Source: Promicromonospora sukumoe 327MFSha3.1 (GTDB lineage Bacteria; Actinomycetota; Actinomycetes; Actinomycetales; Cellulomonadaceae). From it: 64,000 nt of DNA. A model generated the notes under the pieces. That model did not search any database. It was not told the origin of the DNA and saw only the letters and a list, made by a program, of their open reading frames with translations. The stretch lies in assembly GCF_000385135.1 (NCBI RefSeq), contig NZ_ARQM01000010.1, forward strand, positions 682,001 to 746,000, given 5' to 3'. This document shows positions 9,297 through 36,276 of this stretch, piece by piece (the first letter of the stretch is position 1; every line of letters begins with the position of its first letter). The position numbers and the translations under genes are program-made.

Positions 9297-9702
9297 GCGG
9301 ACGAGTCGGTCGGGCGGTCGCGTCGGGCACCCTCGGGTGCCCGCCGAGGAACGTCCGGGCTCCACAGGGCAAGGTGGTGGTTAACAGCCACCCGGGGTGA
9401 CCCGCGGGACAGTGCCACAGAAAACAGACCGCCCTCGGTCCTCGGACCGGGGGTAAGGGTGAAACGGTGGTGTAAGAGACCACCAGCGCCACCGGTGACG
9501 GCGGCGGCTAGGTAAACCCCACCTGGAGCAAGGTCAGACAGACGGTGTTCGAGGGCTGCTCGCCCGATTCTCTTCTGGAGAAACACCGTCGGGTAGACCG
9601 CTCGAGCCCTGCGGCAACGCAGGGCCTAGATGGATGACCGTCGCCCGCGCGGGGGTAACCCCGCGCGGGAACAGAACCCGGCGTACAGACCGGCTCGTCC
9701 GC
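9297..9702 (+). ncRNA. rnpB: RNase P RNA component (type A)
   Basis: The catalytic RNA of RNase P, which matures tRNA 5' ends. Its ends pair to form helix P1: GCGGACGAGTCGGTC at 9297-9311 and GACCGGCTCGTCCGC at 9688-9702. Conserved core elements are present: GAGGAACGTCCGGGCTCC near 9347, AGGGTGAAACGG near 9456, GGTAAACCCC near 9511 and ACAGAACCCGGCGTACAG near 9671. The length of 406 nt fits actinobacterial RNase P RNA. A -10-like TACTCT at 9284-9289 is 7 bp upstream and TTTT follows the 3' end. The last 29-30 bases serve as an integration target (copies at 14408 and 19184). Confidence 0.95.
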
Positions 9703-9703
9703 T
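9674..9703 (+). other. Attachment-site core in the rnpB 3' end (att copy 1)
   Basis: The 30 bases from GAACCCGGCG to CTCGTCCGCT recur at 14408-14437 (29 of 30 identical) and 19184-19213 (28 of 30). This is the junction where the tandem modules begin; the insertion restores the P1 strand, leaving rnpB intact. Confidence 0.75.
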
Positions 9704-9768
9704 TTTAGAGCCCTGACCTGCACCAGCATTGTCGCTGGCCCCGCCGGCCTTTCGTCGACGAGGAGTCG

Positions 9769-11856
9769 CTACCTCGCGCCGCCAAGGCTGATCCGGCGCC
9801 GCAGGGCCTGGGCTAGTGGTGCTTCCCACACGTCGGTGCCCTCCGCCGGATCGGGACCGTCGTGCGGAAGCCGGGCCATCGTCTGCTTGGTGACGCGGAT
9901 AGCCTCCCGGTCGCGCCGGGCGATGCGCCGGGCCAGGCGCTTGGCCTCGTTCCACACGTTCTCGGTCGGGACGACGGATTGCACGAGCCCGCCCTCCAGC
10001 GCCTCCTGGGCGTTGATGGCATCGCCGAGCAGCAGCATCGCGCGGGTCCAGCCGGAACCGATCTCGGCGACCAGGCGGTCCAGCACCTCGCTCGGACCCA
10101 CCGGGATCCTGACGACCGTCTCGGGCGCGCGGAACCGTGCGTCCTCGGCGGCCACGCGCAGGTCGCTCGCGACCGCCAGCCCGAGCCCTGTTCCGGCGAC
10201 GTTGCCGTGCAGCGCCGCGACTGTCACCGCCGGGCAGGTGCGCCAGGCGCGCAGCACCTCGTCGCTGAGCTCGACGAGGTTCCGGTAGCCGTCGGGGTCG
10301 TTGGTGGCGAGCCGGCCGAGCTCGTCCAGGTCGCCGCCTATGCAGAAGTGGCGCCCTTCGGCGCGCAGCACGACGGCGGCGACGTCGTCGGGCAGCGTCT
10401 TGAGCACGTCGCCCAGGGCGGTCAGCGTCGCTCGGTCGAGCCGGTTGTCGCCGTCGGGCCGCGTGAGGGTCACCACCAGCACGGCGTCCTCGCGGTTGAC
10501 CACGACGGGTCCGGCGGCCGACGCGCTCTCACCAGCGGCCACCGCCGCACCAGCACCCGCGGTCGCGGCTGGACGGGGTCGCCGCCGTACCGGCACCGAA
10601 CGTGTTCCGCGGAAGGCGAGGGTCTCGTCGTAGCCCACTGGCCCGGCGAACTCGAGATCGAACCGCTGCAGCACCTCGGGGAACAGTGTCGTCGCTTCCA
10701 GACGGGCCAGCGGCGCGCCCAGGCAGTAGTGCATGCCCACGCCGAAGGCGAGGTTGCGGCGGGGCGGGCGCGAGAGGTTCAGGTCGTGCGGCGAGTCGTA
10801 GGCGTCGGGGTCGTGGTTGGCCGCGGCGACCACGGCGTGCACGATCTGCCCGGCTGACACCGGGATGCCGCCCGGCAGCTCCGTGTCCTGTGCCGCGTAC
10901 CGGGTCATGAGCTGTACGGGCGATACGAAACGGACCAGTTCCTCGACGGCGCCGTGCACGGCTTCCGGGTGCTCGAGCATCCACGTGGCCTGGTCGGGCC
11001 GGCGCAGGAGCTGCACCACGCCGTCGGACAGCAGGGACGTCGTCGTCTCGAGGCCCGCCTCGATCATGACGTTGAGCTGGGAGCCGGCCACCGCGCGCAC
11101 CGCGGGGTCGGTCTCTGTGTCGAGCCACTCTCCCAGCGGGGAGTCCTCCGCGAGCCGGGGTCTGGGCTGGGCTACGAGCTGTTCCCAGTACGCGTTCCAC
11201 AGCTTGCCCGCGCGGTCGGCTTGCGCCATCCGCGCCTTGCTCGGCGCGAGGTCGTGCACGTTCGAGAGCATGCGGCTCATCTCGCACAGCAGCGGGATGT
11301 CCTCGCGCGGCAGCCCGAGAACGATGCAGAGCACCGCCATGGGCAGCCGGTCGCCGACCAGGGCCCCGAAGTCCGCCTCGCCGTCGGCGCGCAGCACCGC
11401 ATCGAACCGGTCGAGGTACTCGTGGACGGTCTGGACGATCTGCGGTGTGAGGTCAGCGACCGACTGCGGCGAGACGAACGAGCCAAGGCTGCGGCGCAGC
11501 CCGGCGTGCCCGGGCGGGTTGGTGCCGAGCGCGGAGTCGTGCAGGAACTTCAGGCCCGGGTGCCGCACCCACGTCGGCTGGCGCGCGGTGCGCCAGGCGG
11601 CGTCCACGGTGCGCCAGCCGGATCCGCTGAGCACCTCGTGGCTCGCGCCGTGCGAGGTGACCATCCAGGCTCCCCACGGCATGCGGACCGCCGGGCCCAT
11701 GGCCCGCAGCTCGTCGTAGACGGCGTGGGGGTCGGCGCGCCCTTCGGGCGAGCTCAGGTGCCGGATCAGCTTGGTCACGCGGCGGCGGGCATCGCGGTCC
11801 GAACTGGCTGCGACGGCGTCTGTCGTCTTCCGGGATCTACCGCTGTGGTCAGGCAC
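9769..11856 (-). CDS. Cytochrome P450 - crotonase (enoyl-CoA hydratase/isomerase) fusion protein
   Basis: 695-residue protein joining two enzymes. Residues about 20-430 are a bacterial cytochrome P450: I-helix EAGLETTT (about 266-273), ExxR in EELVRF (about 306-309) and heme-ligand Cys378 in FGVGMHYCLGAPLAR. An Ala-rich linker follows, then a crotonase domain from about 450 with the oxyanion-hole segment HFCIGGDL and HGNVAGTGLGLAVASDLRVA. The usual GAGGTQ-type segment is replaced by PVGPSEVLDRL, so hydratase activity is uncertain. GTG at 11856 is chosen because AAGGAG lies 6 bp upstream; an ATG at 11886 is in frame but lacks such a site. Redox partners are not encoded nearby. First gene of the rnpB-inserted module. 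Confidence 0.88.
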   Translation of the reverse strand: MPDHSGRSRKTTDAVAASSDRDARRRVTKLIRHLSSPEGRADPHAVYDELRAMGPAVRMPWGAWMVTSHGASHEVLSGSGWRTVDAAWRTARQPTWVRHPGLKFLHDSALGTNPPGHAGLRRSLGSFVSPQSVADLTPQIVQTVHEYLDRFDAVLRADGEADFGALVGDRLPMAVLCIVLGLPREDIPLLCEMSRMLSNVHDLAPSKARMAQADRAGKLWNAYWEQLVAQPRPRLAEDSPLGEWLDTETDPAVRAVAGSQLNVMIEAGLETTTSLLSDGVVQLLRRPDQATWMLEHPEAVHGAVEELVRFVSPVQLMTRYAAQDTELPGGIPVSAGQIVHAVVAAANHDPDAYDSPHDLNLSRPPRRNLAFGVGMHYCLGAPLARLEATTLFPEVLQRFDLEFAGPVGYDETLAFRGTRSVPVRRRPRPAATAGAGAAVAAGESASAAGPVVVNREDAVLVVTLTRPDGDNRLDRATLTALGDVLKTLPDDVAAVVLRAEGRHFCIGGDLDELGRLATNDPDGYRNLVELSDEVLRAWRTCPAVTVAALHGNVAGTGLGLAVASDLRVAAEDARFRAPETVVRIPVGPSEVLDRLVAEIGSGWTRAMLLLGDAINAQEALEGGLVQSVVPTENVWNEAKRLARRIARRDREAIRVTKQTMARLPHDGPDPAEGTDVWEAPLAQALRRRISLGGAR

Positions 11857-12145
11857 TGGGGGCTCCTTATTCAGCCAAGACACCATCTCGTCTGCCGACG
11901 GACAACGTTAAACATAACGTGCATACCGGGCAGAACGTTCGGCTCTTGAGGGTCGCCGTGTGACCATTGCGTAAAAAAATGACTATGAGGCGGCCATGTG
12001 ACGGTGTGGGTAGTCTTGTGCGCCGTTGGCGCAACCTGGCAGCCTCGGCAACCGCCTGCCAGGTCGACCCCGGTGCCGAAGACCCTCGCCATCACGGCCT
12101 GAGTCCCCCAGCCGCTGGTGCTCGTCCCGAGCATCGGTAGATCGA
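11857..12145. other. Intergenic region upstream of the P450 fusion
   Basis: Holds the P450-fusion promoter region with a palindrome at 11905-11920 and an A-run at about 11972, then sequence without recognisable coding homology up to the GH9 relic. Base composition is lower in GC than in the backbone. Confidence 0.5.
11905..11920. promoter_or_regulatory. Palindrome ACGTTA-AACA-TAACGT, candidate operator
   Basis: Perfect 6-bp arms with a 4-base spacer, 49 bp upstream of the GTG start of the P450-crotonase gene. Position and symmetry suggest a repressor site; the regulator is unknown. Confidence 0.45.
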
Positions 12146-12253
12146 GTCGCCGACATCCTCGACGAGGCACGCCGGAACCTCGAGTTCATGCTCAAGATGC
12201 AGGTCCCCGACGGCGAACCCTGCGCGGGCATGGCGCACGAAGACCTGCGTTAA
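12146..12253 (+). pseudogene. Relic of a GH9 endoglucanase
   Basis: An open frame encodes [19 protein letters not shown] followed by [16 protein letters not shown] and a stop. This matches the segment of family 9 cellulases where DEARWELEFLLKMQVP and G(M)VHHK-like sequence precede the catalytic domain. Only about 36 residues survive: no signal peptide, no catalytic Asp pair, no start codon at the right distance. It is a decayed fragment caught between the two P450 genes. Confidence 0.55.
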
Positions 12254-12296
12254 CGGCAAGGCGCACGTCGATGCCGTCTGACGCTCCAGGGGCAGG

Positions 12297-13529
12297 TCAG
12301 ACGCGGGCAGGCGTGCGGGCGGCCTGGCGCTCGGGAGTGAACGTCACCGGCAGCGTGGACGGGTAGCGCGACCACGGCGATGGCGCCCACTTCACCACCG
12401 GGTCGGTGAGCCTCAGGTCGAGCCGCTCCATGAGGCTCTCCACCGCGATCTTGACCACGAGCCGCCCTGGGCGCTTGGCGGGGCACGCGTGCGGCCCGAC
12501 GCCGAAGGACAGGTGCGACCGGTTGCCCGCCTCGAAGAGGTCGTCACTGGTGCGTACCCGCGGGTCGTTGTTCGCGGCGGCCACGCCCATCACTATCGCG
12601 TCACCGGCGCGGATCTGGGCGGTGCCGAGGGTGCAGTCGGTCACGGCGTACCGGGCGGGCAGGTTCGCCACGGGCGGCTCGCTCCACAGCGTCTCGTCCA
12701 TCGCGTCGTCCAGGCCGCGGCGCACGCCGGTGACGCGGCCGGTGTACCGGGGGTCGGTGAGCATGCGGCGAAGTGTGGCCGCGATCCAGGTCACGAGCAT
12801 CTCGTTGGCCGCGCAGATCGCGATCACCATGGAGTGCACGATCTCGGTGTCGTCCTCGAAATTCGGGTGCTCGATGAAGCTGGTGGTCAGGTTCGGGCCT
12901 GGCTCCGCCCGGGTCGCGATGACGTGGTCCATCACGATCTGGTCCATCCGGACCAGGGCTGACACGGGATCGCCGCCGTGCCCGAAGATCTCGCTCGCGC
13001 AGTGCAACAGGTCGACCCCCTGCCGCTCGTCGAAGCCGAACATGCCCGACACCGCCAGGAACGACACCGCCGCCGCATACTCGCCCATCAGGTCCGCACT
13101 GCCCTTGGCGGCGAACGAGTCGATGAGCCGGGCGCACACGACGCGCACGAGCGCTGCCGTCCGGACCTCGTCCATGTCGGCGAACGCCTCGTCCACCGGG
13201 AGCCGCAGCCGCCGGTGCTCCGCGCCGTCCGAGAAGTACAGGTTCCGCCGTCCGGTCGGGGACAGGATGGCGTGCAGGGTCGACTGCGGTGGTAGCTGCT
13301 CTCTCCAGTGCCGTGGGTTCCGGGCGAAGACGCTCTCGGTGCGCATCACCTCCATGACCTCGGCGTGCCCCAGCACGAGCCAGCCCGGTACGCCTGGCTC
13401 CAGGTCCACGGGGGCCACCGGCCCCCACTGGTCCTGCAGCTTGCGCAGTGCCGCAGTCATGTCCTCTGCACCGGTCAGGTCCACCAGCGCGACCCGGCCC
13501 CCGCTCCGCTGCGGTTCGAGGTCAGGCAT
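12297..13529 (-). CDS. Cytochrome P450, CYP157-like, lacking the ExxR arginine
   Basis: About 410-residue P450. The heme-binding loop FGVGPHACPAKRPGRLV contains the Cys ligand, but two usual motifs are altered. The I-helix reads CAANEMLVTWIAA without the acid-alcohol pair, and the K-helix reads DETLW where ExxR is expected, so the arginine is replaced by tryptophan. This combination is known for the CYP157 family of streptomycetes, whose genes usually lie in conservons (cvnABCD) beside a second P450. Here a second P450 is present but no cvn genes are. ATG 13529 has GGAGG nearby; ATG 13553 is an in-frame alternative. Substrate unknown. Confidence 0.85.
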   Translation of the reverse strand: MPDLEPQRSGGRVALVDLTGAEDMTAALRKLQDQWGPVAPVDLEPGVPGWLVLGHAEVMEVMRTESVFARNPRHWREQLPPQSTLHAILSPTGRRNLYFSDGAEHRRLRLPVDEAFADMDEVRTAALVRVVCARLIDSFAAKGSADLMGEYAAAVSFLAVSGMFGFDERQGVDLLHCASEIFGHGGDPVSALVRMDQIVMDHVIATRAEPGPNLTTSFIEHPNFEDDTEIVHSMVIAICAANEMLVTWIAATLRRMLTDPRYTGRVTGVRRGLDDAMDETLWSEPPVANLPARYAVTDCTLGTAQIRAGDAIVMGVAAANNDPRVRTSDDLFEAGNRSHLSFGVGPHACPAKRPGRLVVKIAVESLMERLDLRLTDPVVKWAPSPWSRYPSTLPVTFTPERQAARTPARV

Positions 13530-13778
13530 GCCCCTCCACCCCTCGACATTCATCTCAATTATCCATCGAAATCGGGGGCGACCTGCGTAGACGCCCGATC
13601 AGGCGTTTCTATCACGGGCGGCAGAGAACACGAAACACGCGGCGTTCTTCCCCACGGCGGCCAGGTCCGGGCTCATCGCCGTCGCGAACACCAGCGCCCG
13701 GAACGCCCCTCGCGAGACCCACGCTCTGTTCATGACCGCTTGTGGTGACCTGCTGTCCGCTCCGGTAGAACGATCGCT

Positions 13779-14180
13779 ATGAGCTGGGTGGCGAACGTCA
13801 TGATCTCGGTCGACCTGGACGACACCGAGAACGCGGAGGCGCTGAGCGAGTGGCTACGGACAGAAGCCCCCCGCCGGTCGGGTCCTGAGCGTGGCGGAGT
13901 GGGGTACCTGAGACTGCTCACAAGCACGGAGGACAACCAATGGGGCGGGTGGAAGGCACCCGAGTGCGAGGTGTGGGCAGGAGCCTTGAACCATGCTGAC
14001 CTCGATGCTGTCCGGCAGCGCTTCTTCGAGATGCCGTGGCGCGAGCCGAACGCGGTGCAACTGTTCGTGATGGACCAGGAAGAGGACTTCTTCCGGCTGT
14101 GGATGATCCGCGGTGACGAGCTTCGGCAGTTCGCGCCCCTCGTGCCGAGCGAGGACGACGAGGTCTTCTATCGGGAGTGA
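13779..14180 (+). CDS. Conserved hypothetical protein (orphan, possibly immunity-type)
   Basis: 133-residue soluble acidic protein starting MSWVANVMISVDLDDTENAE. Recognisable blocks are NQWGGWKAPECEVWAGALNH and QLFVMDQEEDFFRLWMIRGD. No signal peptide, membrane segment or known catalytic motif is visible. Similar proteins are, from memory, scattered in streptomycetes without assigned function. It stands alone at the right end of module 1. Small, acidic, Trp-rich proteins of this kind are frequently immunity proteins, but nothing here proves it. Confidence 0.7.
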   Translation: MSWVANVMISVDLDDTENAEALSEWLRTEAPRRSGPERGGVGYLRLLTSTEDNQWGGWKAPECEVWAGALNHADLDAVRQRFFEMPWREPNAVQLFVMDQEEDFFRLWMIRGDELRQFAPLVPSEDDEVFYRE

Positions 14181-14338
14181 AGAGGCAAGCACAAGGCCGT
14201 TCACACTCGGACGGCGGCGAGCCTGCACGTGGTCCGACAGAAGGGCCGCTCGGTACACATCGGGTACACATGACCGCCGGCTGAGGCCATCCGACGCCAC
14301 CTCCACCAACGCGCCCCGGACCCGGCAGAACAGCGAAT
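14181..14338. other. Right-end non-coding stretch of module 1
   Basis: No credible gene. It contains the direct repeat GGTACACATC / GGTACACATG at about 14252-14275, shortly before the 98-bp repeat, and otherwise no recognisable element. Confidence 0.45.
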
Positions 14339-14436
14339 TTCCAACGATCTCGCGGTGCCCAACCCACTTGTCGGACACCGCGAGACATACCAGCACACCA
14401 TCCGGGAGAACCCGGCGTGCAGACCGGCTCGTCCGC
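14339..14436. repeat. 98-bp repeat, copy B, ending in the rnpB attachment core
   Basis: Differs from copy C (19115-19212) at only three positions. The first part has an inverted repeat, TCTCGCGGTG at 14348-14357 and CACCGCGAGA at 14376-14385. The last 30 bases (14408-14437) duplicate the rnpB 3' end with one change (A to G). Interpreted as a module right end fused to an att site. Confidence 0.8.
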
Positions 14437-14507
14437 TCCCAGAGTTGGTGGCTCGGGCGCCGCGCGGTGGGACGGGGATGTACGCTCGCGGCCAGCGACG
14501 GCAGGAC

Positions 14508-15548
14508 CTAGTCAAGGTCGTGCTCAGCAGGTCCAATTGCGGGTTTAGCACCTCCTGGAGGGTTCGCGTTGCGACCGGCTGCCCGCAGTCGGAGCCAAAG
14601 GCCAGTGCCAATAGATGCCGCTAGGCATAAGATCCCGATGACCACATACCCAGTGACGGGAAGTGCGTCGACGCTGCCCGTAACAGGGTCGGGGGATGCG
14701 AGAATTTGGTATTCATCGTGCATGGCTAGGTCCCGAGCCATCGCGGCTGCGATCGCCACGCTCGTTGCCGCTGTGCAGCTGATCGTGATGCGCAAGGGTC
14801 GCGACGTGAACACCGCCGGTAGGACCACCAACGGCGTCAGTGCATCGTAGGGAAGAAGGACAGGGATGGCGCTCGTGGCCAGACAGATTGCCGCCGGGTA
14901 GCGCTTTCGAAAGAGCACCGCCCAAGGCGCGATGAACGTGAGCAGGAGGGCGGGCCACGTAATCAGGTTGGGCTCAAGGACATCGGTGGATTCGAGGCCT
15001 GGGGGCCGGCCGGACATATCAAGAAAGGTCACCGCAACAATCGAGCTGAACCAACAGGCCGCCACCAGAAATAAACTGCGGACCAGATCCCATTTCGTCG
15101 GGATGAGACGCTTGAGCGGTTCTGGGAACCATCTGAACGCTCCCGTAACCTCCGAGGGGGAGCGAGTCGTGGTTTGGGGGTGGCGTTCGACCGCCTGGCG
15201 GTGCGGCAGCCCCGAGTCGACGGTGCTCGGTCCTTGGTTGATCTCGACCGACCTGGCATCGTTGAATGCGTCGCGGTCAACTGTCGCCTCGGTAGTCGAG
15301 GCGGGTTCCGGGGCGCGGTCGAGATCTTCCCGTGACGCGTGTTTGGCGTTCGTGAGTGCTTGGGCCGTGATGGCCGCACAAACGGCGGCGATGAATGAAA
15401 CGCCTGCCGCAATCCAAAATTGGTTGCTGAGAATCATGCTTCCGCCAGCGCGCGTGACCTGGTTGGCCGTGACGGTCGCAAAGGTGCCCGATAGCGCGGT
15501 CACGGCCGCGCTCACGCCGATCAGCAACCAGCGAGCCCACTGCTTCAT
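14508..15548 (-). CDS. Multi-pass membrane protein resembling a sensor kinase input domain without kinase
   Basis: 346-residue protein. Two N-terminal membrane segments (WLLIGVSAAVTALSGTFATV and FWIAAGVSFIAAVCAAITA) are followed by a polar stretch of about 80 residues. Then come about five more hydrophobic segments including WPALLLTFIAPWAVLFRKRY and AAICLATSAIPVLLPYDAL. The second half resembles the membrane input module of actinobacterial histidine kinases, in which an RRxP-type motif separates the helices, but no HisKA or HATPase domain follows; the C-terminus is a short charged tail. ATG 15548 is preceded by an in-frame TTG. Lower GC than the backbone genes, consistent with acquisition. 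Function unknown. Confidence 0.6.
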   Translation of the reverse strand: MKQWARWLLIGVSAAVTALSGTFATVTANQVTRAGGSMILSNQFWIAAGVSFIAAVCAAITAQALTNAKHASREDLDRAPEPASTTEATVDRDAFNDARSVEINQGPSTVDSGLPHRQAVERHPQTTTRSPSEVTGAFRWFPEPLKRLIPTKWDLVRSLFLVAACWFSSIVAVTFLDMSGRPPGLESTDVLEPNLITWPALLLTFIAPWAVLFRKRYPAAICLATSAIPVLLPYDALTPLVVLPAVFTSRPLRITISCTAATSVAIAAAMARDLAMHDEYQILASPDPVTGSVDALPVTGYVVIGILCLAASIGTGLWLRLRAAGRNANPPGGAKPAIGPAEHDLD

Positions 15549-15942
15549 CAATCATCCGAATCGACTCGAACGGTTTGGTGTCGCAATTGGTGATGATACC
15601 GCGAGCTACTTCCGATGTAGTAGTCCGAGCTGCCCCCAGTGAGGTCTAGCGGCCTCTGCGGGAGATGGGCATCGCAGGACGATCCGTCCAGACTGGGGCT
15701 AATGGCGCTTCGCGAAGCGCCCAACGGGGCATCATCTCGTACAAACTGCCATTCGCAGGGTGATTCTTTTAGCGGTGCCCGAAGCGGACGTCGATCGCAC
15801 CGGCGTGAGGGCCGAAACCTGCGGTAGATTTCATTGCTGGAATTATAATGCGGCGATCTGCTGGTCGACGGCACGGCGGCGATGCGTCTGTACCTCGACG
15901 ACGGGCAGTTGGCCGGCTCAACCTGCCCGTTACCGTTGCGCC
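15549..15942. other. Intergenic region with a perfect 18-bp palindrome
   Basis: 394 bp, relatively AT-rich. GGCGCTTCGCGAAGCGCC at 15704-15721 is a perfect palindrome that could end a transcript. The stretch upstream of the next gene reads RLYLDDGQLAG in another frame, possibly residual coding sequence, but no intact gene is supported. Confidence 0.5.
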
Positions 15943-16236
15943 ATGCGGTCCCGGAAGACGCCACAGGAGAAGAAACAGCTCAGCCTTGCCAGAGACCGCC
16001 GGAACAACTACGGCGAGAACGACAAGGCGTCCCGCAAGACGGTCCCCTTCCGCAAGGCCTCGGTGAACCGTGCGAACCGGCACGCGGACCGGCGAACCCT
16101 CACCGACGCGACCGGCGACAACGATGCCGAGGTCACCGAGTCAGCCGAACTGAGGCTTCGGGGTCGTCGCCGGAAGGTGTGGCGTAAGTGGCCGGACATG
16201 GCGCTCGGGGAGTACATCAATCAACGCAAAGCCTGA
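15943..16236 (+). CDS. Small basic conserved hypothetical protein
   Basis: 97 residues, strongly basic: MRSRKTPQEKKQLSLARDRR, then KASRKTVPFRKASVNRANRH, ending WRKWPDMALGEYINQRKA. Similar short Arg/Lys-rich proteins occur in actinobacterial accessory regions without assigned function. No membrane segment or known fold motif. The charge suggests nucleic-acid contact, but that is inference. Frame chosen over longer upstream extensions because those contain no conserved sequence. Confidence 0.6.
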   Translation: MRSRKTPQEKKQLSLARDRRNNYGENDKASRKTVPFRKASVNRANRHADRRTLTDATGDNDAEVTESAELRLRGRRRKVWRKWPDMALGEYINQRKA

Positions 16237-16486
16237 TGTGCCGGAGAGATGCGACGGGGGTGCACGTAGGGCGCGGGGCCCGCAGCGGGGTCCAGACTGC
16301 GCGGTGAAGCCGCGCCCTTGCAGAGGTCAATTCGGCAGCGGCGCTGCCAGGGCCAGGGCGACCTCGACGCCCTCGTCCTAGAACTGTCTGGACGTCCGGT
16401 CGAACGACGCTCTGCGTGGGAACCACTATGCACAACGTGTGGTGCTCCAGATCAAGCGCGAGGGCTCGGGCGCCGGGAGGTACCTC

Positions 16487-17281
16487 ATGGGCATGCTCGC
16501 CGAGCCATTCGAGGTAGTGGCCGACGCCGGTTGTCGTCCCGCCGCCGAACCGCTGCACGATTACGCAGCGCACGAGGGGAGTCTCCCCACAGCCACATTG
16601 TCCGAGCGCTACCCTCGGCGCGTGGAGACCGAGATCGCCCGGCTGGCGCGGGACTGGAACCCGAGAGCGATATCGGACATCTGGCACCCCGTGCGGACAG
16701 CCGGGCTCGGTGACCGCGACACGCTGGGCGCCCGGGTCCGAGCCGACCTCCAGGCGGAACCAGAACTGGTCGACTCCTGGGCTGCGTACTCGCAGGACAA
16801 GCGGTTCACGCCATCCTGGGCCTTGGAGGGGCGGCGTGTCACTTGGGTTTCGCCGTCGACAGGAACAGTCCGCGGACCCACGTGGATGTTCGATGACGAG
16901 GTCGAGGCATGTGCCGAGTTCATCCTGAGGGACGCATTGTGGTCGGTCGAGCGGCGGTTCGTGGACGTCGTGGCTGGGCCGCTGAACCGGTCGTGGTCCC
17001 TCATGGACGATGACCGCTTCCTGGCATTGCTCACGGTGACCGACAGCGACTTCCCTTGGTTGAACGCGACGCTCGCGCCCGCTCCAGCGTTCGAGAGTTG
17101 GCGTCCTGTATTCGACGACGAACGCCGGGCGCTCGACAAGATCGACGACGACCCGGAGGCGTGGGAAGCCGCCTACGACATCGTCGGCAATGCTCTAACC
17201 CTGCGTGACCCCGACGGGAACGACGTCGAGGCGTTCCTGCTCCACATCAACGGTGACGCAGCATGGTGGCGGTGGGCATGA
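16487..17281 (+). CDS. Hypothetical protein, first gene of a coupled pair
   Basis: 264-residue soluble protein with no family I can name. Notable segments are LARDWNPRAISDIWHPVRTA, WSLMDDDRFLALLTVTDSDF and a C-terminal EAFLLHINGDAAWWRWA. ATG 16487 is chosen because GGGAGG lies 6 bp upstream; the frame stays open further 5' (to 16439) and a GTG at 16622 would give a shorter protein, so the N-terminus is uncertain and may be a truncated remnant of a longer gene. Its stop overlaps the next start (ATGA), so both are translated together. Confidence 0.55.
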   Translation: MGMLAEPFEVVADAGCRPAAEPLHDYAAHEGSLPTATLSERYPRRVETEIARLARDWNPRAISDIWHPVRTAGLGDRDTLGARVRADLQAEPELVDSWAAYSQDKRFTPSWALEGRRVTWVSPSTGTVRGPTWMFDDEVEACAEFILRDALWSVERRFVDVVAGPLNRSWSLMDDDRFLALLTVTDSDFPWLNATLAPAPAFESWRPVFDDERRALDKIDDDPEAWEAAYDIVGNALTLRDPDGNDVEAFLLHINGDAAWWRWA

Positions 17282-17907
17282 CCGAGACGACTGACGGATG
17301 GACCTCCGGCCGGTGGCTCCGCATCGGCGCGCCGAACCTCACGGACCTGCGCAACTTCTGGGCGACCGGACGCCGCATCACGGCGGCAGAACTCCTGCTC
17401 TACGTCGAGGCCGACCTCCAATTGCGCGACGACGACAGGATCCTGTTCGAGGAACCGCGATTCGAAGTCGCCGAGCTTGCTGTTGCCTTGACTCAGTGGG
17501 TGGGCGAAGGCACTGAGCCGGACCACGACTTCGTGCACGATCCGTCGTCATACGAGGAGACGGGCGTCATCCGTATCATCCGGACCGACGGCGGCTGGGC
17601 CGCCGGCTCGTGCTTCATCACGGGGACCACCGCGGCGCAGCCGTGGCCGGTCGTCAGGGAGTCGATCGACACCTTCATCGCGGTCGCGCGCGAACTCACG
17701 GCGAGATCCCTGCTCGAAGTTGGGTGGTCAATCATCGAAACGATGGCTGCCCTGCGGCGCGGGCTCGGCGTGCCACTGCGAGAAGCCAAGCCCCTGGTTG
17801 TCCGGGCGAGTGGCCGCGCGTCCGAGTTTTACGCATTCCAGGACGAGGCCTGGGCCGCTTTGAAGGCCGTCCCGGCGGATGATGACGCACTGGAGTTTCG
17901 CGAATGA
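17278..17907 (+). CDS. DUF7878-like protein
   Basis: 209 residues. Segments LYVEADLQLRDDDRILFEEP, RFEVAELAVALTQWV and GVIRIIRTDGGWAAGSCFI match, from memory, a family of small actinobacterial proteins (DUF7878) found as scattered orphans; the role is unknown. The start ATG overlaps the stop of the upstream gene by 4 bp (ATGA), indicating translational coupling. The C-terminal part SGRASEFYAFQDEAWAALKA appears unrelated to that core. Confidence 0.6.
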   Translation: MTETTDGWTSGRWLRIGAPNLTDLRNFWATGRRITAAELLLYVEADLQLRDDDRILFEEPRFEVAELAVALTQWVGEGTEPDHDFVHDPSSYEETGVIRIIRTDGGWAAGSCFITGTTAAQPWPVVRESIDTFIAVARELTARSLLEVGWSIIETMAALRRGLGVPLREAKPLVVRASGRASEFYAFQDEAWAALKAVPADDDALEFRE

Positions 17908-18242
17908 GTCCCGACTGCCAGACAACGCCATTCCTTCTCGCACTTGCAGCACGCGTCGCCTTGCTGCCCCGACGGGTTGCCTGCTCCCCCGCAGATTGCG
18001 GGCCCGTGCCAGTCCGCAGATAGTCCGCAAGAGGTCCGCACCAGCCCATCCGGCCCCAACACGACCAACGGCCGGGAACGTTCGAATCCCAACGTTCCCG
18101 GCCGTCGTCGCTCTCATCACACCGTGCCGGATGTCCGAACTGCGATCCACGAACTACTGCAGATAACACGAGGCCAGAATCGAAATTCACCATGGTCGCG
18201 CTCTCGTGACTGCTGCGGCCCGGCCTCTGCCATGATCCCTAT
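17908..18242. other. Non-coding region with short repeats and a strong hairpin
   Basis: No convincing gene. It contains three spaced TCCGCA repeats at about 18013-18037 and the perfect hairpin at 18068-18105. Confidence 0.5.
18068..18105. terminator. Perfect 15-bp-arm hairpin
   Basis: ACGGCCGGGAACGTT (18068-18082) pairs perfectly with AACGTTCCCGGCCGT (18091-18105) around loop CGAATCCC. Probably ends the 16487-17907 transcript, although it lies 160 bp downstream. Confidence 0.6.
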
Positions 18243-18476
18243 ATGGACCCGGAGTTGCCGATCGTGCAGGTGGACCTGTGGCGTGCCGACGCAGTCGTGT
18301 TGTTCGACTGGCTCATGTCGGTAGACCTGGACACCGTTCCGATCTCGCACCCTGCGCAGAAGCAGGCACTGATGGACCTGGTGACGAGGCTCGAGACGGA
18401 GACCGACCTTCCGGGCGTTGCCCAGGCGGAGATCGAGGAAGCCCAGTTGTCCGTCGCACAAGACATGGGCTGGTAG
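18243..18476 (+). CDS. Small conserved hypothetical protein
   Basis: 77 acidic residues: MDPELPIVQVDLWRADAVVL, FDWLMSVDLDTVPISHPAQK and a C-terminal AEIEEAQLSVAQDMGW. Soluble, without signal peptide or metal motif. The next gene begins 6 bp downstream, so they form an operon. The acidic composition and pairing with an immunity-like neighbour fit a polymorphic-toxin immunity or antitoxin role, which is only inference. Confidence 0.6.
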   Translation: MDPELPIVQVDLWRADAVVLFDWLMSVDLDTVPISHPAQKQALMDLVTRLETETDLPGVAQAEIEEAQLSVAQDMGW

Positions 18477-18482
18477 CCGCGC

Positions 18483-19073
18483 ATGATCACCGCGCTTTCA
18501 CGGACGAGCGTTCTCCTCTCGCTTCAGCGCGCACTCTGGGATGTGGTCACACCCGGGCTGCGCGGAGTGGCAGTCAGTTTTGGTGGTTCTAGCATCGAGG
18601 GCCGGATGATCTACGACCACGAACCTGGCCCCGCGGATCGCGAGGACTGTTCACTGGTGGAGACGTATGTCGTTGCCGATTTCCCCGACGACGTAGTGGT
18701 CAGCCTCAGTGCCGTCGCTGCCACCCCGCCCGAGCCGCGATCATTGCTCGCCGAAGAATCGTGGGTGTACCTGCGCAAGGAACCCGCTCCACCCGAACCG
18801 TGGCATCCGCACCGCAGCCCTACAGCTCCGCCGCTGCTCGACTCACCTCGCACGCGCGGCGAGCTCGCGACATTCATCGACGAACTCGCGACCACGATCA
18901 TGGCCGCGCCCGACGCCTGGGAGAACGTCACGCTTCCTGCCTATCTCCGTGCACTTGCCGCCTGGACCCGTGACCTCGACGGCTTCTACCTGAACCACGC
19001 CGAGACGGTACCCGAGACGCCGTCCTGGAATCTCATGGCGCGGATGCTCCATGCCGCGACCGGCTACGAGTAG
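18483..19073 (+). CDS. Two-domain protein: immunity-like N-terminus fused to DUF7660-like C-terminus
   Basis: 196 residues. The first half (LQRALWDVVTPGLRGVAVSF, YDHEPGPADREDCSLVETYV, WVYLRKE) resembles small immunity-like proteins encoded beside toxin clusters. The second half (ELATFIDELATTIMAAPDAW, ENVTLPAYLRALAAWTRDLD, PSWNLMARMLHAATGYE) matches the DUF7660 pattern. The join at about residue 115 is Pro-rich (HPHRSPTAPPLLDSPRTRG). Each domain alone would make a complete small protein, so this is a fusion. It is the last gene before the third att copy. Confidence 0.6.
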   Translation: MITALSRTSVLLSLQRALWDVVTPGLRGVAVSFGGSSIEGRMIYDHEPGPADREDCSLVETYVVADFPDDVVVSLSAVAATPPEPRSLLAEESWVYLRKEPAPPEPWHPHRSPTAPPLLDSPRTRGELATFIDELATTIMAAPDAWENVTLPAYLRALAAWTRDLDGFYLNHAETVPETPSWNLMARMLHAATGYE

Positions 19074-19114
19074 GCAACCGCCGGCGCACGGTGGGTTTCC
19101 CGACTGCTACCCAG

Positions 19115-19212
19115 TTCCAACGATCTCGCGATGCCCAACCCACTTGTCGGACACCGCGAGACATACCAGCACACCATCCGGGAGAACCCAGCGTACAGAC
19201 CGGCTCGTCCGC
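19115..19212. repeat. 98-bp repeat, copy C, ending in the rnpB attachment core
   Basis: Three differences from copy B (14339-14436). Inverted repeat TCTCGCGATG / CACCGCGAGA at 19124-19133 and 19152-19161. The final 30 bases (19184-19213) duplicate the rnpB 3' end with two changes. Marks the right boundary of module 2 and of the whole island. Confidence 0.8.
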
Positions 19213-19244
19213 CTTTAGGTCTCTGCAGGTCACCAGGCCAGCGC

Positions 19245-19808
19245 TCAGCGCCGCGTCTCGTACCGGTTCAGGACCACCCCGCCGGAGAACGTCCGCGTCT
19301 CCACCAGGTTCAGGTTCACCCAGCTGTCCAGTGCGGTGAAGAACGGTTTGCCGCCACCCACCAGGGCCGGATGCGTGACGATCGTGTACTCGTCGATCAG
19401 CCCGGCCCGCATGGCCGCCGCGGCGAGCTGCGCTCCGCCGACCCGTATCGGTCCGTCGCCCTCGGCCTTGAGCCGGGCGATCTCCGCGACCGCGTCGCCG
19501 TCGAACAGCCGGGCGTTCCAGTCGACCTTGTCGAGGGTCGACGAGAACACCACCTTCGGCGTGTCCCGCCAGTTCCGCGCGAACTCGATCTCTGCCGGCG
19601 TGGCGCCCGGCTGCTGGTCGCCCGTCGGCCAGTAGGAGCTCATCATCTCCCAGAGCTTGCGACCGTACAGGAACAGCTCGATCGCCCGCTCCTCGTCGAG
19701 CCACCACTGGAACAGCTCCTCGTTCGGCTCGCTCCAGCCGAGCTCGTCGCCGGGGGCGGAGATGTAGCCGTCCACGCTCAGGTTCATGCCATAGAGCAGT
19801 TTCCGCAT
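19245..19808 (-). CDS. Dihydrofolate reductase family protein (RibD C-terminal domain-like)
   Basis: 187-residue NADPH-dependent reductase fold. MRKLLYGMNLSVDGYISAPG, ELFLYGRKLWEMMSSYWP, KVVFSSTLDKVDWNARL, GPIRVGGAQLAAAAMRAGLI and THPALVGGGKPFF follow the RibD_C/YyaP-like pattern. This family is widespread as single genes with unknown substrates and is not housekeeping DHFR. ATG 19808 is preceded by GGAAGG. The 3' end lies 32 bp from the island boundary, so this is probably the first backbone gene to the right of it. Confidence 0.82.
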   Translation of the reverse strand: MRKLLYGMNLSVDGYISAPGDELGWSEPNEELFQWWLDEERAIELFLYGRKLWEMMSSYWPTGDQQPGATPAEIEFARNWRDTPKVVFSSTLDKVDWNARLFDGDAVAEIARLKAEGDGPIRVGGAQLAAAAMRAGLIDEYTIVTHPALVGGGKPFFTALDSWVNLNLVETRTFSGGVVLNRYETRR

Positions 19809-19914
19809 GGCTTCGTGCCTTCCGTCGGTCGGTCTCCAGCACAGACCGGCGCGTCGCGGAAAACTCATCGGCGCGATGGAACGGGTCCCGCGCCGCGGCC
19901 CCTAGGGTGCTCGG

Positions 19915-20880
19915 ATGATCGACGTACCGGAGGCGTTCGCGCGAACCACCGTCGAGCGGGAAGGCGAGTCCGGGGCAGCATGGCTCGCCGAGCTGCCCGT
20001 GACCGTGGACGGGCTGATGGAGCGTTGGGAGTGTGCGCCCGACGGCGCCGTCCTGCACGGAGGTGTGGGCGTCATCGTTCCGGTCCGACGGCGGTCCGGC
20101 GACGCCGCGGTGCTGAAGGTGTCGTTCCCGCACCCCGGCAACGTCCACGGGCCGGACGCGTTCGCGGCGTGGGGCGGGCGCGGCGCCGTGCTGCTGCACG
20201 CCAGGGACGACGCGCGGTTCGCGATGCTCCTGGAGCGGGCCCACACCTCGACCCTGGCTGACGCAAACACAGATGCCGACGCCGACGACGCCGCCGCCGA
20301 CCTCAGCGACGAGGTCGCGGCGGTCGCAGGCCGGCTCAGTCGAAGACTGGCGATTCCCGCGCCACCCGGCCTGCCCCGCTTGCGCCATCGGGCCGAGGGA
20401 TGGGAGCAGGAGCTGCACCGGGACGCCGAGGAGCTGCCGCACCGGCTACCGGCCCACGTGGTGGACGCCGCCGTGGCGACCGTCCGTGAGATCGGCAGCA
20501 TGCAGCCGGACGTGCTCGTCCACGGCGATCTTCATCCGCGCAACATCCTGCGCGCCGACCGCGAGCCGTGGCTGGCGGTCGATCCCAAGGGGTACGCGGG
20601 AGATCCCGCCTACGACGTCGGCGCGTTCCTGAAGGCGCGTGCGGTGACGTTTCTCGAGGCCGATGACCTGGAAAAAGCCGTTCGTCGCACCCTCGACGTC
20701 TTCGCCGAGGCCGCGGAGCTCGACCGGGAGCGTGTTCAGCGCTGGGCCCAGCTCCACCTGGTGCAGGCCTCGTTCTGGGGGCGTCGTCAGGGATTTCGGA
20801 TCGCTCGGAACGGGGCACCGGCGGACCAGCTCACCGAGTACGCGGAACATCTGGCGGTGTTGCTGACAGCTCCTGCCTAG
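19915..20880 (+). CDS. Aminoglycoside/hydroxyurea phosphotransferase (APH(6)-like)
   Basis: 321-residue kinase of the APH fold; relatives phosphorylate streptomycin at position 6 or hydroxyurea. Visible are the nucleotide-binding N-lobe (VVLK-equivalent AAVLKVSFPHPGN), the catalytic loop VLVHGDLHPRNILRA with Asp and Asn, and the metal-binding AVDPKGYAGDPAYDVGAFL. The start fits APH(6)-type proteins (FARTTVEREGESGAAWLAEL). Chromosomal copies of this type in actinobacteria are often silent or of unknown substrate, so a resistance phenotype is not implied by sequence alone. Confidence 0.85.
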   Translation: MIDVPEAFARTTVEREGESGAAWLAELPVTVDGLMERWECAPDGAVLHGGVGVIVPVRRRSGDAAVLKVSFPHPGNVHGPDAFAAWGGRGAVLLHARDDARFAMLLERAHTSTLADANTDADADDAAADLSDEVAAVAGRLSRRLAIPAPPGLPRLRHRAEGWEQELHRDAEELPHRLPAHVVDAAVATVREIGSMQPDVLVHGDLHPRNILRADREPWLAVDPKGYAGDPAYDVGAFLKARAVTFLEADDLEKAVRRTLDVFAEAAELDRERVQRWAQLHLVQASFWGRRQGFRIARNGAPADQLTEYAEHLAVLLTAPA

Positions 20881-20881
20881 G

Positions 20882-21004
20882 CTGCCCGTAGTCCTACTAC
20901 CCGTAATCATCTTCGGCGTCATTCAGCTCGTCGTCGGCGTCTACCAGCTCGCCGACAACGTCGACCGCATGGCCAAGGCAGTGCTCAACAGGGAGCGCGA
21001 CTAG
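20882..21004 (+). CDS. Possible 40-residue membrane miniprotein
   Basis: Immediately after the phosphotransferase stop, an open frame reads LPVVLLPVIIFGVIQLVVGV then YQLADNVDRMAKAVLNRERD and stops. One hydrophobic helix followed by a charged tail looks like a real small membrane protein, but no ATG, GTG or TTG precedes it in frame; only CTG at 20882 is available. It may be a truncated gene or use CTG. Confidence 0.3.
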   Translation: MPVVLLPVIIFGVIQLVVGVYQLADNVDRMAKAVLNRERD

Positions 21005-21081
21005 CGCGCTCGGAGGGGCCGCGGACGGCGGATGGCGTCCCGCCGAAATAACGGCGAGATCCGTGGCCGCCCTCCGTCAGG

Positions 21082-21876
21082 ATGGCCGGCATGGACAAGG
21101 CTGGTACGGACAAGCCAGGCACGGATCAGGTCGAGGTCGTCGTGGCCCACAGCCAGCGCGCGACGCTGCGCGTCGGCGACGTGTTCCTGAAGGTCGACGG
21201 CGACCTGGCGCACGCCGACGTCGAGGTGCGGGCGATGGGCCTCGCGCCGATCCCGACCCCCGCGATCCTCTGGCACGAACCCCCGGCGCTCGCGATCGCC
21301 GCCGTGCCCGGCACGGCCCTCGGCGTGCTCGGCGCGCCGTCGGCCGCGTCGTCGGCCGCGTGGGCGGCGGCGGGAGCCGCGATCCGGAAGCTGCACGACG
21401 CGCCCCTGCCGCCGTGGCCGGGACGCACGCTCGACGACGTCGCGGCCGAGCTCGACACGGAGTGCGCGTGGCTGCTCGCCAGCGGCACGCTGCCCGCCGA
21501 GGTGGTGCGGCGCAACCGCGAGATCGCCGAGGCCGCGCTCCGGCCGTGGACGCCCGCGTTCATCCACGGCGACCTGCAGATCACCCATGTGTTCGTCGAC
21601 GGCGACGAGGTGACCGGCGTCATCGATTGGTCCGAGGCGGCGCCCGGTGACGCCATGTTCGACCTCGCCATCCTGACCCTCGGGCACGAGGAACGCCTCG
21701 ACGACCTGCTCGCCGGCTACGGCCCGGGTGCGGACCGGGACGTGATCCGTGCGTGGTGGTCGCTGCGCAGCCTGACGGCGTCGCGCTGGCTGATCGAGCA
21801 CGGCTTCGACCCGGACTCACCGGGGTGCGAGTTCGACGTGCTCCGGTCCCGGATGGCGGACCCCGAGGGTCGGTAG
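21082..21876 (+). CDS. Aminoglycoside phosphotransferase family protein
   Basis: 264-residue APH-fold small-molecule kinase. Catalytic loop FIHGDLQITHVFVDG (His, Asp; the usual Asn is replaced by His) and metal site VTGVIDWSEAAPGDAMFDLA are clear. The N-lobe is short, with LRVGDVFLKVDGD. Start at ATG 21082, with a second ATG at 21091 equally possible. The stop is 3 bp before the start of the ATPase gene, so the pair is co-transcribed. It is not closely similar to the preceding phosphotransferase. Substrate unknown. Confidence 0.82.
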   Translation: MAGMDKAGTDKPGTDQVEVVVAHSQRATLRVGDVFLKVDGDLAHADVEVRAMGLAPIPTPAILWHEPPALAIAAVPGTALGVLGAPSAASSAAWAAAGAAIRKLHDAPLPPWPGRTLDDVAAELDTECAWLLASGTLPAEVVRRNREIAEAALRPWTPAFIHGDLQITHVFVDGDEVTGVIDWSEAAPGDAMFDLAILTLGHEERLDDLLAGYGPGADRDVIRAWWSLRSLTASRWLIEHGFDPDSPGCEFDVLRSRMADPEGR

Positions 21877-21879
21877 CCT

Positions 21880-22611
21880 GTGCGGGTGCTGATCGAGCGA
21901 CTGAGCGTCAGGCCCGCCCAGGTCGAGCGGGGCGTGTGGCCGTGGACGGTGCCGGCCGTCGCCGAGATCGCGGCCCGCGGTGTGCGGCTGACCAGCGGCA
22001 TCGTCGTCCTGATGGGGGCCAACGGGTCCGGCAAGTCCACGGTGCTCGAAGCGATCGCGGAGCAGTACGGGATCGACGTGCGGGGTGGTCACGGCGGTCG
22101 CAAGTACGCGAGCCAGCTGGAGCCGAGCCCGCTCGGCGAAGCCCTCGTCCTGGACCGGACGATCTCCGGTTCCCGGATGCTCCGGCAGAAGGCGAAGGGC
22201 TTCTACCTGCGCGCCGAGACCGCCGCCGGGATGCTGGAGTTCATGACCGGGGCCGGGGTGAGCGGCTACGGCGACCGGCTCTCGACCGAGGTCAGCCATG
22301 GCGAGTCCTACCTCCAGGCGATCTCCGGCAGGTTCGCCGGCCCCGGCCTCTACCTGCTCGACGAGGCCGAGGGGCCGCTGTCGTTCGAGTCGACCCTGCA
22401 GCTGCTGTACCGGCTGCAGGACCTCGTGGCCGACCACGACGCGCAGGTCATCTACGCGACGCACTCCCCGCTGGTCGCGGCGATCCCCGGCGCGCAGATC
22501 CTGGAGATGACCGAGGACGGCATCGCCGAGCGCACGTGGTCCCAGCTGGAGTCGGTCGCCCTCTGGAAGAGGTTCCTCGGGCGTCCGGACGTGTTCTTCG
22601 ACGCCGAGTGA
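21880..22611 (+). CDS. AAA family / SMC-like ATPase (COG3910 type)
   Basis: 243-residue soluble ATPase related to ABC/SMC ATPase domains. Walker A is GANGSGKST at about residues 46-54, the signature-like region is EVSHGESYLQAISGRF, Walker B is LYLLDEAEGPLS, and the switch His is in VIYATHSPLVAAIPGA. No membrane or coiled-coil insertion is present, so it is a minimal stand-alone predicted ATPase. The GTG start at 21880 follows the phosphotransferase stop by 3 bp. The partner or substrate is not evident. Confidence 0.83.
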   Translation: MRVLIERLSVRPAQVERGVWPWTVPAVAEIAARGVRLTSGIVVLMGANGSGKSTVLEAIAEQYGIDVRGGHGGRKYASQLEPSPLGEALVLDRTISGSRMLRQKAKGFYLRAETAAGMLEFMTGAGVSGYGDRLSTEVSHGESYLQAISGRFAGPGLYLLDEAEGPLSFESTLQLLYRLQDLVADHDAQVIYATHSPLVAAIPGAQILEMTEDGIAERTWSQLESVALWKRFLGRPDVFFDAE

Positions 22612-22623
22612 CGGACGCCGCCC

Positions 22624-23136
22624 TCACAGCTCCCGGGTGAGGAACAGCGAGTCACCGTGCACCGCGTCCGGCTCGACGCGCCCCGACTCCGCGAACCCGA
22701 CCTTCGCCAGCACGCGGAGCGAGGCGTCGTTCCAGGCCCGGACCGTGGCCCACAGCCGTTCGTAGCCCGACTCCCGCGCCCAGCCGAGCACCGCCCACGC
22801 GGCCTCGGTCGCGTACCCGTGGCCCCAGGCCCGGCGCAGCAGCTCGAACGCGAGCTCCGGCTCGTCGTCCGGCACCTGGGAGCCGGTGATCAGGCCGCAG
22901 TAGCCGATCACCTCGCCCGAGCCCTTCAGCTCCAGCGCCGGCAGCCCGAGCGTCGACGGCGCGGCGGCGTCCTCGATCCACCGGGCGACGTCCGCGACCG
23001 TCGGCCGGCCGTCGGCGCCGATCCGGCGGTGCGGGGGCACGCGCGGGTCGCGCTCGGTCCACATCTCGTGCTGAACGGCGGCCTCGGACACGCGCCAGGG
23101 CCGCAGCAGCAGGCGATCCGTCTCGAGCAGGAACAT
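22624..23136 (-). CDS. GNAT family N-acetyltransferase
   Basis: 170-residue acetyltransferase of the RimJ/L-like type. FLLETDRLLLRPWRVSEAAV opens the fold; SGEVIGYCGLI is the central strand; ELLRRAWGHGYATEAAWAVL contains the pyrophosphate-binding Q/RxxGxG/A signature (RRAWGHGYA); NDASLRVLAKVGF is the final motif. ATG 23136 gives a normal-length protein; the frame remains open far upstream but without homology. Target could be a small molecule or an N-terminal amine. It is convergent with the ATPase gene. Confidence 0.87.
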   Translation of the reverse strand: MFLLETDRLLLRPWRVSEAAVQHEMWTERDPRVPPHRRIGADGRPTVADVARWIEDAAAPSTLGLPALELKGSGEVIGYCGLITGSQVPDDEPELAFELLRRAWGHGYATEAAWAVLGWARESGYERLWATVRAWNDASLRVLAKVGFAESGRVEPDAVHGDSLFLTREL

Positions 23137-23164
23137 GCGGCCGACCCTAACCGGCGCCTCCGGA

Positions 23165-23224
23165 CCGACGTCCGAGACACCCGACGTCCGAGACACCCGA
23201 TGTCCGAGACACCCGACGTCCGAG
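23165..23224. repeat. Tandem 16-bp repeats, 3.75 units (CCGACGTCCGAGACAC)
   Basis: Units at 23165-23180, 23181-23196 and 23197-23212 (one change), plus a partial unit to 23224. The array occupies the 5' region of the GNAT gene and the gap to the divergent secreted-protein gene. There is no spacer between units, so it is not a CRISPR. Confidence 0.85.
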
Positions 23225-23400
23225 CGCCCCACCCCCAGCACTGCATTCAGCCCGATATATCCACACCGATGTATGTGTTTGCGCCAAACGTCGGTTTGGC
23301 AGTTTCGGGTTCTTTGGCCCGGCGTTATGGTCGCCAGCGACGGCGCGTCTGCGCCGCGAGGCCGCGGTCCTCGCGCGGCCGGAGTGCAGGGGGCACACAC

Positions 23401-24897: not shown

Positions 24898-24947
24898 CCG
24901 CGTCGGCAGGTAGACGCCGCCGCCCGGCCCCGTGGCAGCATGCGGGC

Positions 24948-26888: not shown

Positions 26889-26958
26889 GTTTTCGAGTGA
26901 AGCACGGGCCCCAGACGCCGTCGACCGGTGGGTGGGCGAACTTCTCGGCCCCGGAAAA

Positions 26959-27846: not shown

Positions 27847-27888
27847 CTTCCGAAATTAACATCCGGCGGTCCCGGTAGCCTGCCCGGC

Positions 27889-28698: not shown

Positions 28699-28717
28699 TC
28701 CACGGCTGATCCACGGC
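28685..28717. repeat. Three tandem 11-bp repeats (TGATCCACGGC) across a stop codon
   Basis: Units at 28685-28695, 28696-28706 and 28707-28717, followed by a degenerate fourth. The first encodes the final residues of the IMPase-family protein; the second begins with its TGA stop. Confidence 0.85.
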
Positions 28718-28802
28718 TGATCGCACGATTGATCCCATGGTTGAGCACGTCGAGCCACGGACGGGTTCGGACCCATCGGGCGCCGTCGGAGAGAATGCGC
28801 CC

Positions 28803-29465: not shown

Positions 29466-29480
29466 TCCCGAAGGGCGTGG

Positions 29481-29510
29481 GCCGGGCCGTCCTGCCGACG
29501 CCGGCCCGGC
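29481..29510. terminator. Bidirectional hairpin between the phosphatase gene and sigJ
   Basis: GCCGGGCCG (29481-29489) pairs perfectly with CGGCCCGGC (29502-29510) in a 45-bp convergent gap. GC-rich arms without a T-run. Confidence 0.65.
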
Positions 29511-34585: not shown

Positions 34586-34603
34586 ATCTGGTGAAAATTT
34601 TAC

Positions 34604-36270: not shown

Positions 36271-36276
36271 CACCCG

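Follow-up and report, generated by a model that had tools for sequence, protein, structure and literature searches.

The 3' end of rnpB as a very probable attachment site for stacked, decayed mobile elements in Promicromonospora sukumoe

We analyzed a 64-kb stretch of DNA from Promicromonospora sukumoe 327MFSha3.1 (the window) and found that the 3' end of rnpB, the gene for RNase P RNA, is very probably a chromosomal attachment site of mobile elements with a tyrosine integrase, the window itself holding a tandem array of cis-mobilizable elements (CIMEs). An essential RNA gene seems to act here as a docking site, like tRNA genes. When integration sites fall in RNA genes, the usual categories are tRNA and tmRNA. 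RNase P RNA is an essential and normally single-copy ribozyme, and the sequence of the site is among its most conserved. The source genome (G000) has 6.25 Mb, and the window lies within its contig C10 of 2.2 Mb.

In the window, rnpB is intact (9297-9703, + strand). The Rfam family RF00010 matched it at full length (9302-9701(+), 300 bits; class A RNase P RNA) and was the sole RNA family above its gathering score in the 64 kb; the window has no tRNA or tmRNA gene, and the target is RF00010 instead of those that define a tRNA/tmRNA island. Helix P1 is formed by 9297-9311 (5' strand) and 9688-9702 (3' strand), with the pairing checked. The last ~30 bases of the gene, which comprise the GAACCCGGC segment and the 3' strand of P1, are the core of the elements. 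Its first copy, 9674-9703(+), is the true rnpB 3' end. A sequence-only reading of this DNA had reported this 30-mer again at 14408-14437 (29/30) and 19184-19213 (28/30), both on the + strand, and a direct count agrees, as do the spacings of 4734 and 4776 bp; the best further ungapped match on either strand of the 64 kb reached 20/30. We searched 221 genomes of the family with a 28-mer of the core, allowing up to 3 mismatches, and with the reversed pattern as control. The core was matched in 98 of the 221 genomes, 21 of which had two or more matches (some on separate contigs), and G005 presented four cores in a row. The copies are not chance repeats: the reversed pattern matched none of the 221.

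Both distal cores close a 98-bp unit (14339-14436 and 19115-19212, both +). As had been described from the letters, the two units differ at three positions (95/98 identical). The 10-bp inverted repeat ascribed to them held in part: it is perfect in copy 1 (14348-14357 / 14376-14385), and one pair is broken in copy 2 (position 17). We refine that description, since the 98-bp unit is the right arm of the element (68 bp, with the inverted repeat) plus the core. We had considered the inverted repeat as a conserved RNA structure and dropped the idea; because copy 2 and several relatives do not preserve it intact, we take it as a putative protein-binding arm.

The 98-bp unit was searched in 59 genomes, with up to 15 candidates per genome scored and at least 80 of the 98 positions required for a near-complete copy. 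Among the candidates scored in the 13 Promicromonospora genomes (own genome included), 13 of 14 near-complete copies were located between rnpB and glnA and oriented like rnpB. The expectation that other genomes would have the same repeat beside rnpB was borne out downstream of the gene in 10 of the 13, with no near-complete copy in G006, G008, and G010. Boundary variation, the other expectation, was also found: the distance from rnpB to glnA ranged from 15.6 to 87.4 kb in the 11 Promicromonospora with both genes on one contig (27.4 kb in the window genome) and from 3.1 to 10 kb in six loci of other genera. It was also large in Myceligenerans (72 kb in G025, 57 in G208, and 17 in G210), where such elements are carried too. 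In G077, glnA lies on the opposite side of rnpB.

Neither module had been credited with a recognizable integrase, and none of their nine open reading frames (ORFs) encodes one. In the source genome, none of the 8 candidates scored out of 12 matched the rnpB-type integrase at E<=1e-60, and all its seven Pfam tyrosine-recombinase matches lie outside the window. The fitting tyrosine recombinase proposed to exist elsewhere turned up near rnpB in relatives. A 391-residue integrase of the tyrosine type (PF00589) points at rnpB in G001, 5.5 kb away, and in G003 (Promicromonospora sp. AC04), 2.7 kb away. It is 76-77% identical in Antribacter gilvus G014, 4.5 kb from rnpB, and in Myceligenerans indicum G208, where about 0.1 kb separates its stop from rnpB; there, a second core follows 22.3 kb further on. 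At E<=1e-60, 15 family genomes matched the integrase, and in 14 of them an rnpB-type core lay no more than 6 kb away. In 11 of these, rnpB itself was present; the stretches fetched from the other three (G230, G139, and G150) contained the core and no rnpB. G209 presented an integrase match and no rnpB-type core within 6 kb. Rfam located rnpB in six of ten family loci; the four without it were L098-L101. In L098, L099, and L100, we found a second arrangement, with the rnpB-type core following the integrase on the same strand and no rnpB in the stretch fetched, while L101 had no core.

These source elements share features with integrative and mobilizable elements. The one in G003 spans 19.3 kb from rnpB to its distal core and contains the integrase, preceded by a helix-turn-helix gene, a MobF relaxase (238.8 bits in NCBIfam, cut-off 100), and a 133-residue right-end gene. 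G003 and G208 both have their own tyrosine integrase near the attachment (att) site and a relaxase, with TrwC in both, and no mating-pore genes were found among the subset of ORFs scanned in these two elements. As a side observation, the elements with intact integrase present candidate defence genes (L022:12995-17107 and L025:10204-12564). Between integrase and rnpB, G003 holds PDC-S19 (484 bits) and a TIR-like effector (29 bits), and G001 holds PDC-M54A (50 bits) and a weak STAND-NTPase match below the Pfam cut-off. We also observed a very small element (L093:4263-7939) of 3.6 kb from rnpB to a second core with 4 mismatches, formed by the integrase and two further ORFs without PADLOC match.

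The tail of rnpB itself varies among relatives. The gene ends in CAGGCTGGCTCGTCCGC in G001, G003, and G009 (P. panici) and in CAGACCGGCTCGTCCGC in the other 10 Promicromonospora; that is, the differing tail ends read ...CAGGCTGGCTCG vs. ...CAGACCGGCTCG. In the three genomes with the variant, the next core on carries the tail usual in the genus (...CAGACC), and an integrase of the same type is intact in G001 and G003 and truncated in G009. The pattern is as expected if recombination occurs in the left part of the core. The P1 5' strand (15 bases) is identical in all 13 genomes, and with the variant tail all 15 P1 pairs still form, two more of them becoming G-U. An island is expected to restore the 3' end of its target, and in this case rnpB is full length, with the variant tail in G001, G003, and G009.

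We suggest the following course of events, in which the recombination itself is inferred. The attachment site of an element would duplicate the final ~30 bases of rnpB, and the tyrosine integrase would insert the element at the 3' end of the gene. The tail copy of the element would be swapped onto rnpB and the tail of the host displaced to the far end of the element, so that rnpB would stay whole. Because rnpB would still offer a complete site, further elements could insert in turn and push the older ones outward. Older elements would then lose integrase and relaxase and keep core and right arm. In the window, two elements –and probably more– would have been reduced to cargo blocks between cores. 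The comparison with relatives in this way supports what the sequence-only reading had put forward, namely site-specific integration into the 3' end of rnpB by successive insertions.

Four cores in a row in G005, blocks each closed by an inverted-repeat site, and a recombinase pointing at the first site also recall an integron-like cassette array, with rnpB as attI and the 98-bp unit as attC. However, the integrase scored 31.8 bits against an integron-integrase cut-off of 265, block lengths range from 1.3 to about 28 kb, copy 2 and several relatives have a broken inverted repeat, and ordinary accretion yields the same geometry. We consider an integron extremely improbable and dropped this reading on the integrase score.

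Decay of the integrase can be followed from genome to genome around the cargo of module 1, which is a pair of cytochrome P450 genes. The pair is present in 7 of the 13 Promicromonospora, in six of them directly after rnpB (the window, G002, G006, G008, G010, and G011). In the seventh, G012, the P450 module follows a distal core that is 24.4 kb away from rnpB; rnpB itself has beside it an integrase belonging to a second lineage (43% identical, 430-residue open frame). Integrase debris lies between the core and the P450 genes in G002, G010, and G012, and in G002 and G012 it has the same internal deletion, the sequence breaking off at residue ~121-123 and resuming at 322. The left-end alignment displayed shorter debris in G010, G006, G011, and G008 and none in the window, where module 1 begins with 9704-9768. 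The protein match to the integrase was weak for G006 (E 2e-4) and not significant alone for G011 and G008, so the kinship of the debris in these three relies on the DNA alignment. Module 1 is a decayed element, whose integrase persists as fragments in relatives and is gone in the window.

These features agree with what defines a CIME. The modules are flanked by att sites of the same specificity, with cores on both sides and right arms, the left arms missing in the window. Integrase and transfer genes are lacking, as none of the nine module ORFs is related to mobility and the genome holds no rnpB-type integrase. Derivation from a complete element is indicated for module 1 by the debris in G002, G010, and G012, and for module 2 only by its right arm. 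For mobilization by a helper, we found the footprint of a spread after decay.

That footprint comes from G002 and G012. Their dead left ends are identical at 541 of 547 aligned bases, while the 13 flanking ORFs of the same pair, pooled, agree at 1769/2411 fourfold sites (0.734). The shared block runs from the first base of the core to 18 bases past the distal core, aligns in three stretches of 96.7, 97.8, and 92.7% identity, and has no similarity adjoining it on either side (blastn E<=1e-10). Since the block with its dead integrase is near-identical and the flanks are divergent, it moved after the integrase died; that is, a block without a working integrase passed between species. Across the 21 genome pairs, fourfold identity was 0.92-0.98 for the P450 fusion gene and 0.90-0.99 for the second P450, against 0.65-0.88 for the pooled flanks. 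The contrast is small in the closest pair, G000-G010 (0.97-0.99 for P450 vs. 0.88 for flanks). The pooled counts include shadow frames, such as 36325-37143(+), up to 0.99 identical; as these raise the identity of the flanks, the bias runs against our reading and not for it.

The same data bear on whether the P450 genes are native neighbors of rnpB, the cores and arms being scraps of one old element and the module never having been mobile as a unit. Their place directly after rnpB in six of seven carriers, three of them without a second core, would suit this view. It is nevertheless largely refuted, and we regard it as very unlikely: integrase debris separates core and P450 genes in G002, G010, and G012, the P450 genes are more alike than the flanks in the 21 pairs, the G002/G012 block is bounded by cores, and glnA is just 3.1-10 kb from rnpB in the six loci of other genera.

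What moved the dead module is a separate matter. An integrase supplied in trans fits best, and either this or excision as a composite would have mobilized it. Dead modules may otherwise have spread between species by homologous recombination at rnpB and the conserved arms, with no integrase in trans. Conserved rnpB and right arms are potential anchors, and the window genome lacks a cognate integrase; however, the identity between G002 and G012 starts at the first core base with nothing similar adjoining, and yaaA, one of the neighbors that recombination would usually drag along, is divergent. We rate this route as possible, if rather doubtful. As regards the window, both modules are probably fixed until a helper arrives, because their own genome has no cognate integrase.

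Several observations weigh against integration at rnpB as we propose it. In G007, an rnpB with the usual tail adjoins part of an integrase of the G001/G003 type (89% identical), so that the variant does not accompany the element in every genome; moreover, the shared tail of G001, G003, and G009 could come from common descent. One near-complete unit copy (G003:C5:47328; L026:7329-7426) lies beyond glnA on the opposite strand, and partial or degenerate copies occur elsewhere: G025:C1:3633426, G002:C3:479768, G003:C1:556366, and, in the source genome, G000:C10:1148892 (L041:9896-9980), which is degenerate and far from rnpB. We suggest that the copies at G003:C5 and at C10:1148892 are secondary sites or rearranged remains. 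G006, G008, and G010 carry the P450 genes beside rnpB without a second core, so decay must be assumed there, yet they retain the P450 genes and integrase debris. No clean empty rnpB site was found within the 13 Promicromonospora genomes. The left end of module 1 lacks an arm and that of module 2 resembles nothing found, and therefore the integration is not readable from the window alone. Finally, two stretches of the G002/G012 block (~260 and ~290 bases) do not align, and homologous recombination could have moved this block.

Beyond the family, a seven-row integrase profile had matches at E<=1e-50 in 144 of 394 genomes from the same class. Among the 30 loci listed (L115-L144), the pattern placed an rnpB-type core within ~300 bases of the integrase stop in 11 (L115-118, L124, L126, L130-133, and L139); a pattern match in L140 was unlike the core and was discarded. 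Rfam, run on 20 of the 30 loci, found a complete rnpB in 8, from five families besides that of the window, which places related integrases by rnpB in at least six actinomycete families. On the tree built from 49 integrases, 5 changes were required for the label "next to rnpB, convergent" (shuffled mean 16.5) and 2 for "core on integrase strand" (shuffled mean 4.9), with none of 500 shuffles as low as observed. Labels were assigned by hand from the core pattern scan; L022, L025, and L044 were labelled rnpB-linked although their core is beyond the reach of the pattern, and the short or distant L056, L057, L058, L060, L085, and L089 were excluded. Since so few changes are needed, several integrase clades keep the rnpB target.

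Phages may use the site as well. Scanning viral contigs with the pattern gave five matches (L146-L150): L146 and L149 have the core beside an integrase and no rnpB, like an attP, L147 holds a complete rnpB, L148 starts inside an rnpB-like context, and L150 has no integrase match. In the free Arthrobacter phage Kukla (PQ362669.1; L145:2492-3680), the core starts 14 bases after the integrase stop and is identical in 29/29 bases to the rnpB end of G041, G753, G729, and G741, from the order of the window and assumed to be Arthrobacter; Rfam confirmed rnpB in G041, G753, and G729. Kukla resembles the rnpB elements in having a core from the rnpB 3' end after a tyrosine integrase (38% identical), and differs in being a phage, with the core on the strand of the integrase and a separate branch of the integrase tree. 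To judge from its genome, this isolated phage likely integrates at rnpB. Phage TripleJ (NC_049470.1) matches the region around the Kukla core at 92% identity.

On a wider and more tentative view, which we find plausible and would not yet call probable, rnpB may be a third general class of structural-RNA integration site, used across actinomycetes by several integrase clades in phages and mobilizable elements, each integration rewriting one strand of P1. In Promicromonospora, it would serve as a shared cassette dock where integrase-less cargo blocks hop between species, from one core to another, with the integrase of another element.

The kind of element is already known, and rnpB as its target would be the new part within the literature covered; for the papers compared here, this refers to the parts of their texts available to us. 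The closest match is the ssrA islands of Dehalococcoides: as in the rnpB array, blocks lie in tandem after an RNA gene and each is delimited by a copy of its 3' end, and in 16 of 31 islands the left edge still has an integration module (PMC3146451). They differ in target and enzyme: tmRNA and the serine integrase DsiB there, rnpB and a tyrosine integrase (PF00589) here. CIMEs have lost integration and transfer genes, keep attL and attR, and become stacked by later integration (PMC5704250, PMC9513070), and the rnpB modules are like them, and like the accretion of integrative conjugative and mobilizable elements, in anatomy (PMC5704250). In the Streptomyces study (PMC9513070), the sites lie in tRNA genes, in protein genes, and at one intergenic location; neither rnpB nor RNase P turned up in a word search of the main texts of PMC5704250 and PMC9513070. 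The tRNA/tmRNA islands of Islander/TIGER share with the rnpB elements a target in the 3' part of a structural RNA and restoration of the gene, while the classes of that resource are tRNA/tmRNA, protein-coding, and intergenic, with rnpB not mentioned in the text available (PMC12424338). In Mycobacterium abscessus, seven tyrosine-integrase sites outside tRNA/tmRNA genes are described (PMC10654092). The available parts of PMC2516327, PMC2705793, PMC3541175, PMC12884075, PMC3937233, PMC10654092, PMC9934374, and PMC6588365 report no rnpB site, and rnpB as an integration target was not found in the open-access literature searched, supplements and most subscription journals being outside this scope.

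A site as conserved as this one in rnpB would give its elements a wide host range. Judging from the classes in PMC12424338, tools restricted to tRNA/tmRNA genes probably score rnpB islands as intergenic. The integrases, the short cores, and a free phage with the rnpB tail open the system to direct testing and may be of use for integration vectors in actinomycetes, and the exchanged 3' strand provides natural variants of helix P1.

Turning to the remaining content of the window, the cargo of module 1 is a 705-residue cytochrome P450/enoyl-CoA hydratase fusion (9769-11886(-); PF00067 and PF00378) and a second cytochrome P450 of 418 residues (12297-13553(-); PF00067, 25.7 bits, cut-off 22.8). This natural fusion adjoining another P450 is an observation in its own right. 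A plasmid search with the fusion gave 12 records, none covering >80% at one place and all <60% identical; with the rnpB region, 43 records matched. The module closes with a right-end gene, M1_c (13779-14180(+), 133 residues, no family), which also adjoins the right end of the integrase-bearing G003 element (92% identical), and with an arm-type direct repeat GGTACACATCGGGTACACA (14252-14270(+)); in integrase-bearing relatives, a near-identical motif comes after the left-end core.

Module 2 (14438-19183) contains six ORFs: 14508-15551(-), 15760-16236(+), 16439-17281(+), 17263-17907(+, DUF7878), 18243-18476(+), and 18483-19073(+, DUF7660). Three GTCCGCA repeats (18012, 18023, and 18034) precede a weak remnant of a right arm of a second type, without core (18058-18112; nhmmer E 2e-5), all within 18012-18112(+). 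Because of this remnant of another arm type, module 2 looks composite.

Past the last core, the variable zone that separates rnpB from the family-wide conserved flank continues over 19214-34853, that is, to about 34.85 kb. In the window, the last core is followed by a ribD-like gene (19245-19868), which in G005 is enclosed by two cores. The conserved chromosomal flank (34854-38598) comprises STAS (34854-35225(+)), ROK (35324-36070(-)), and glutamine synthetase (37147-38598(+)) genes.

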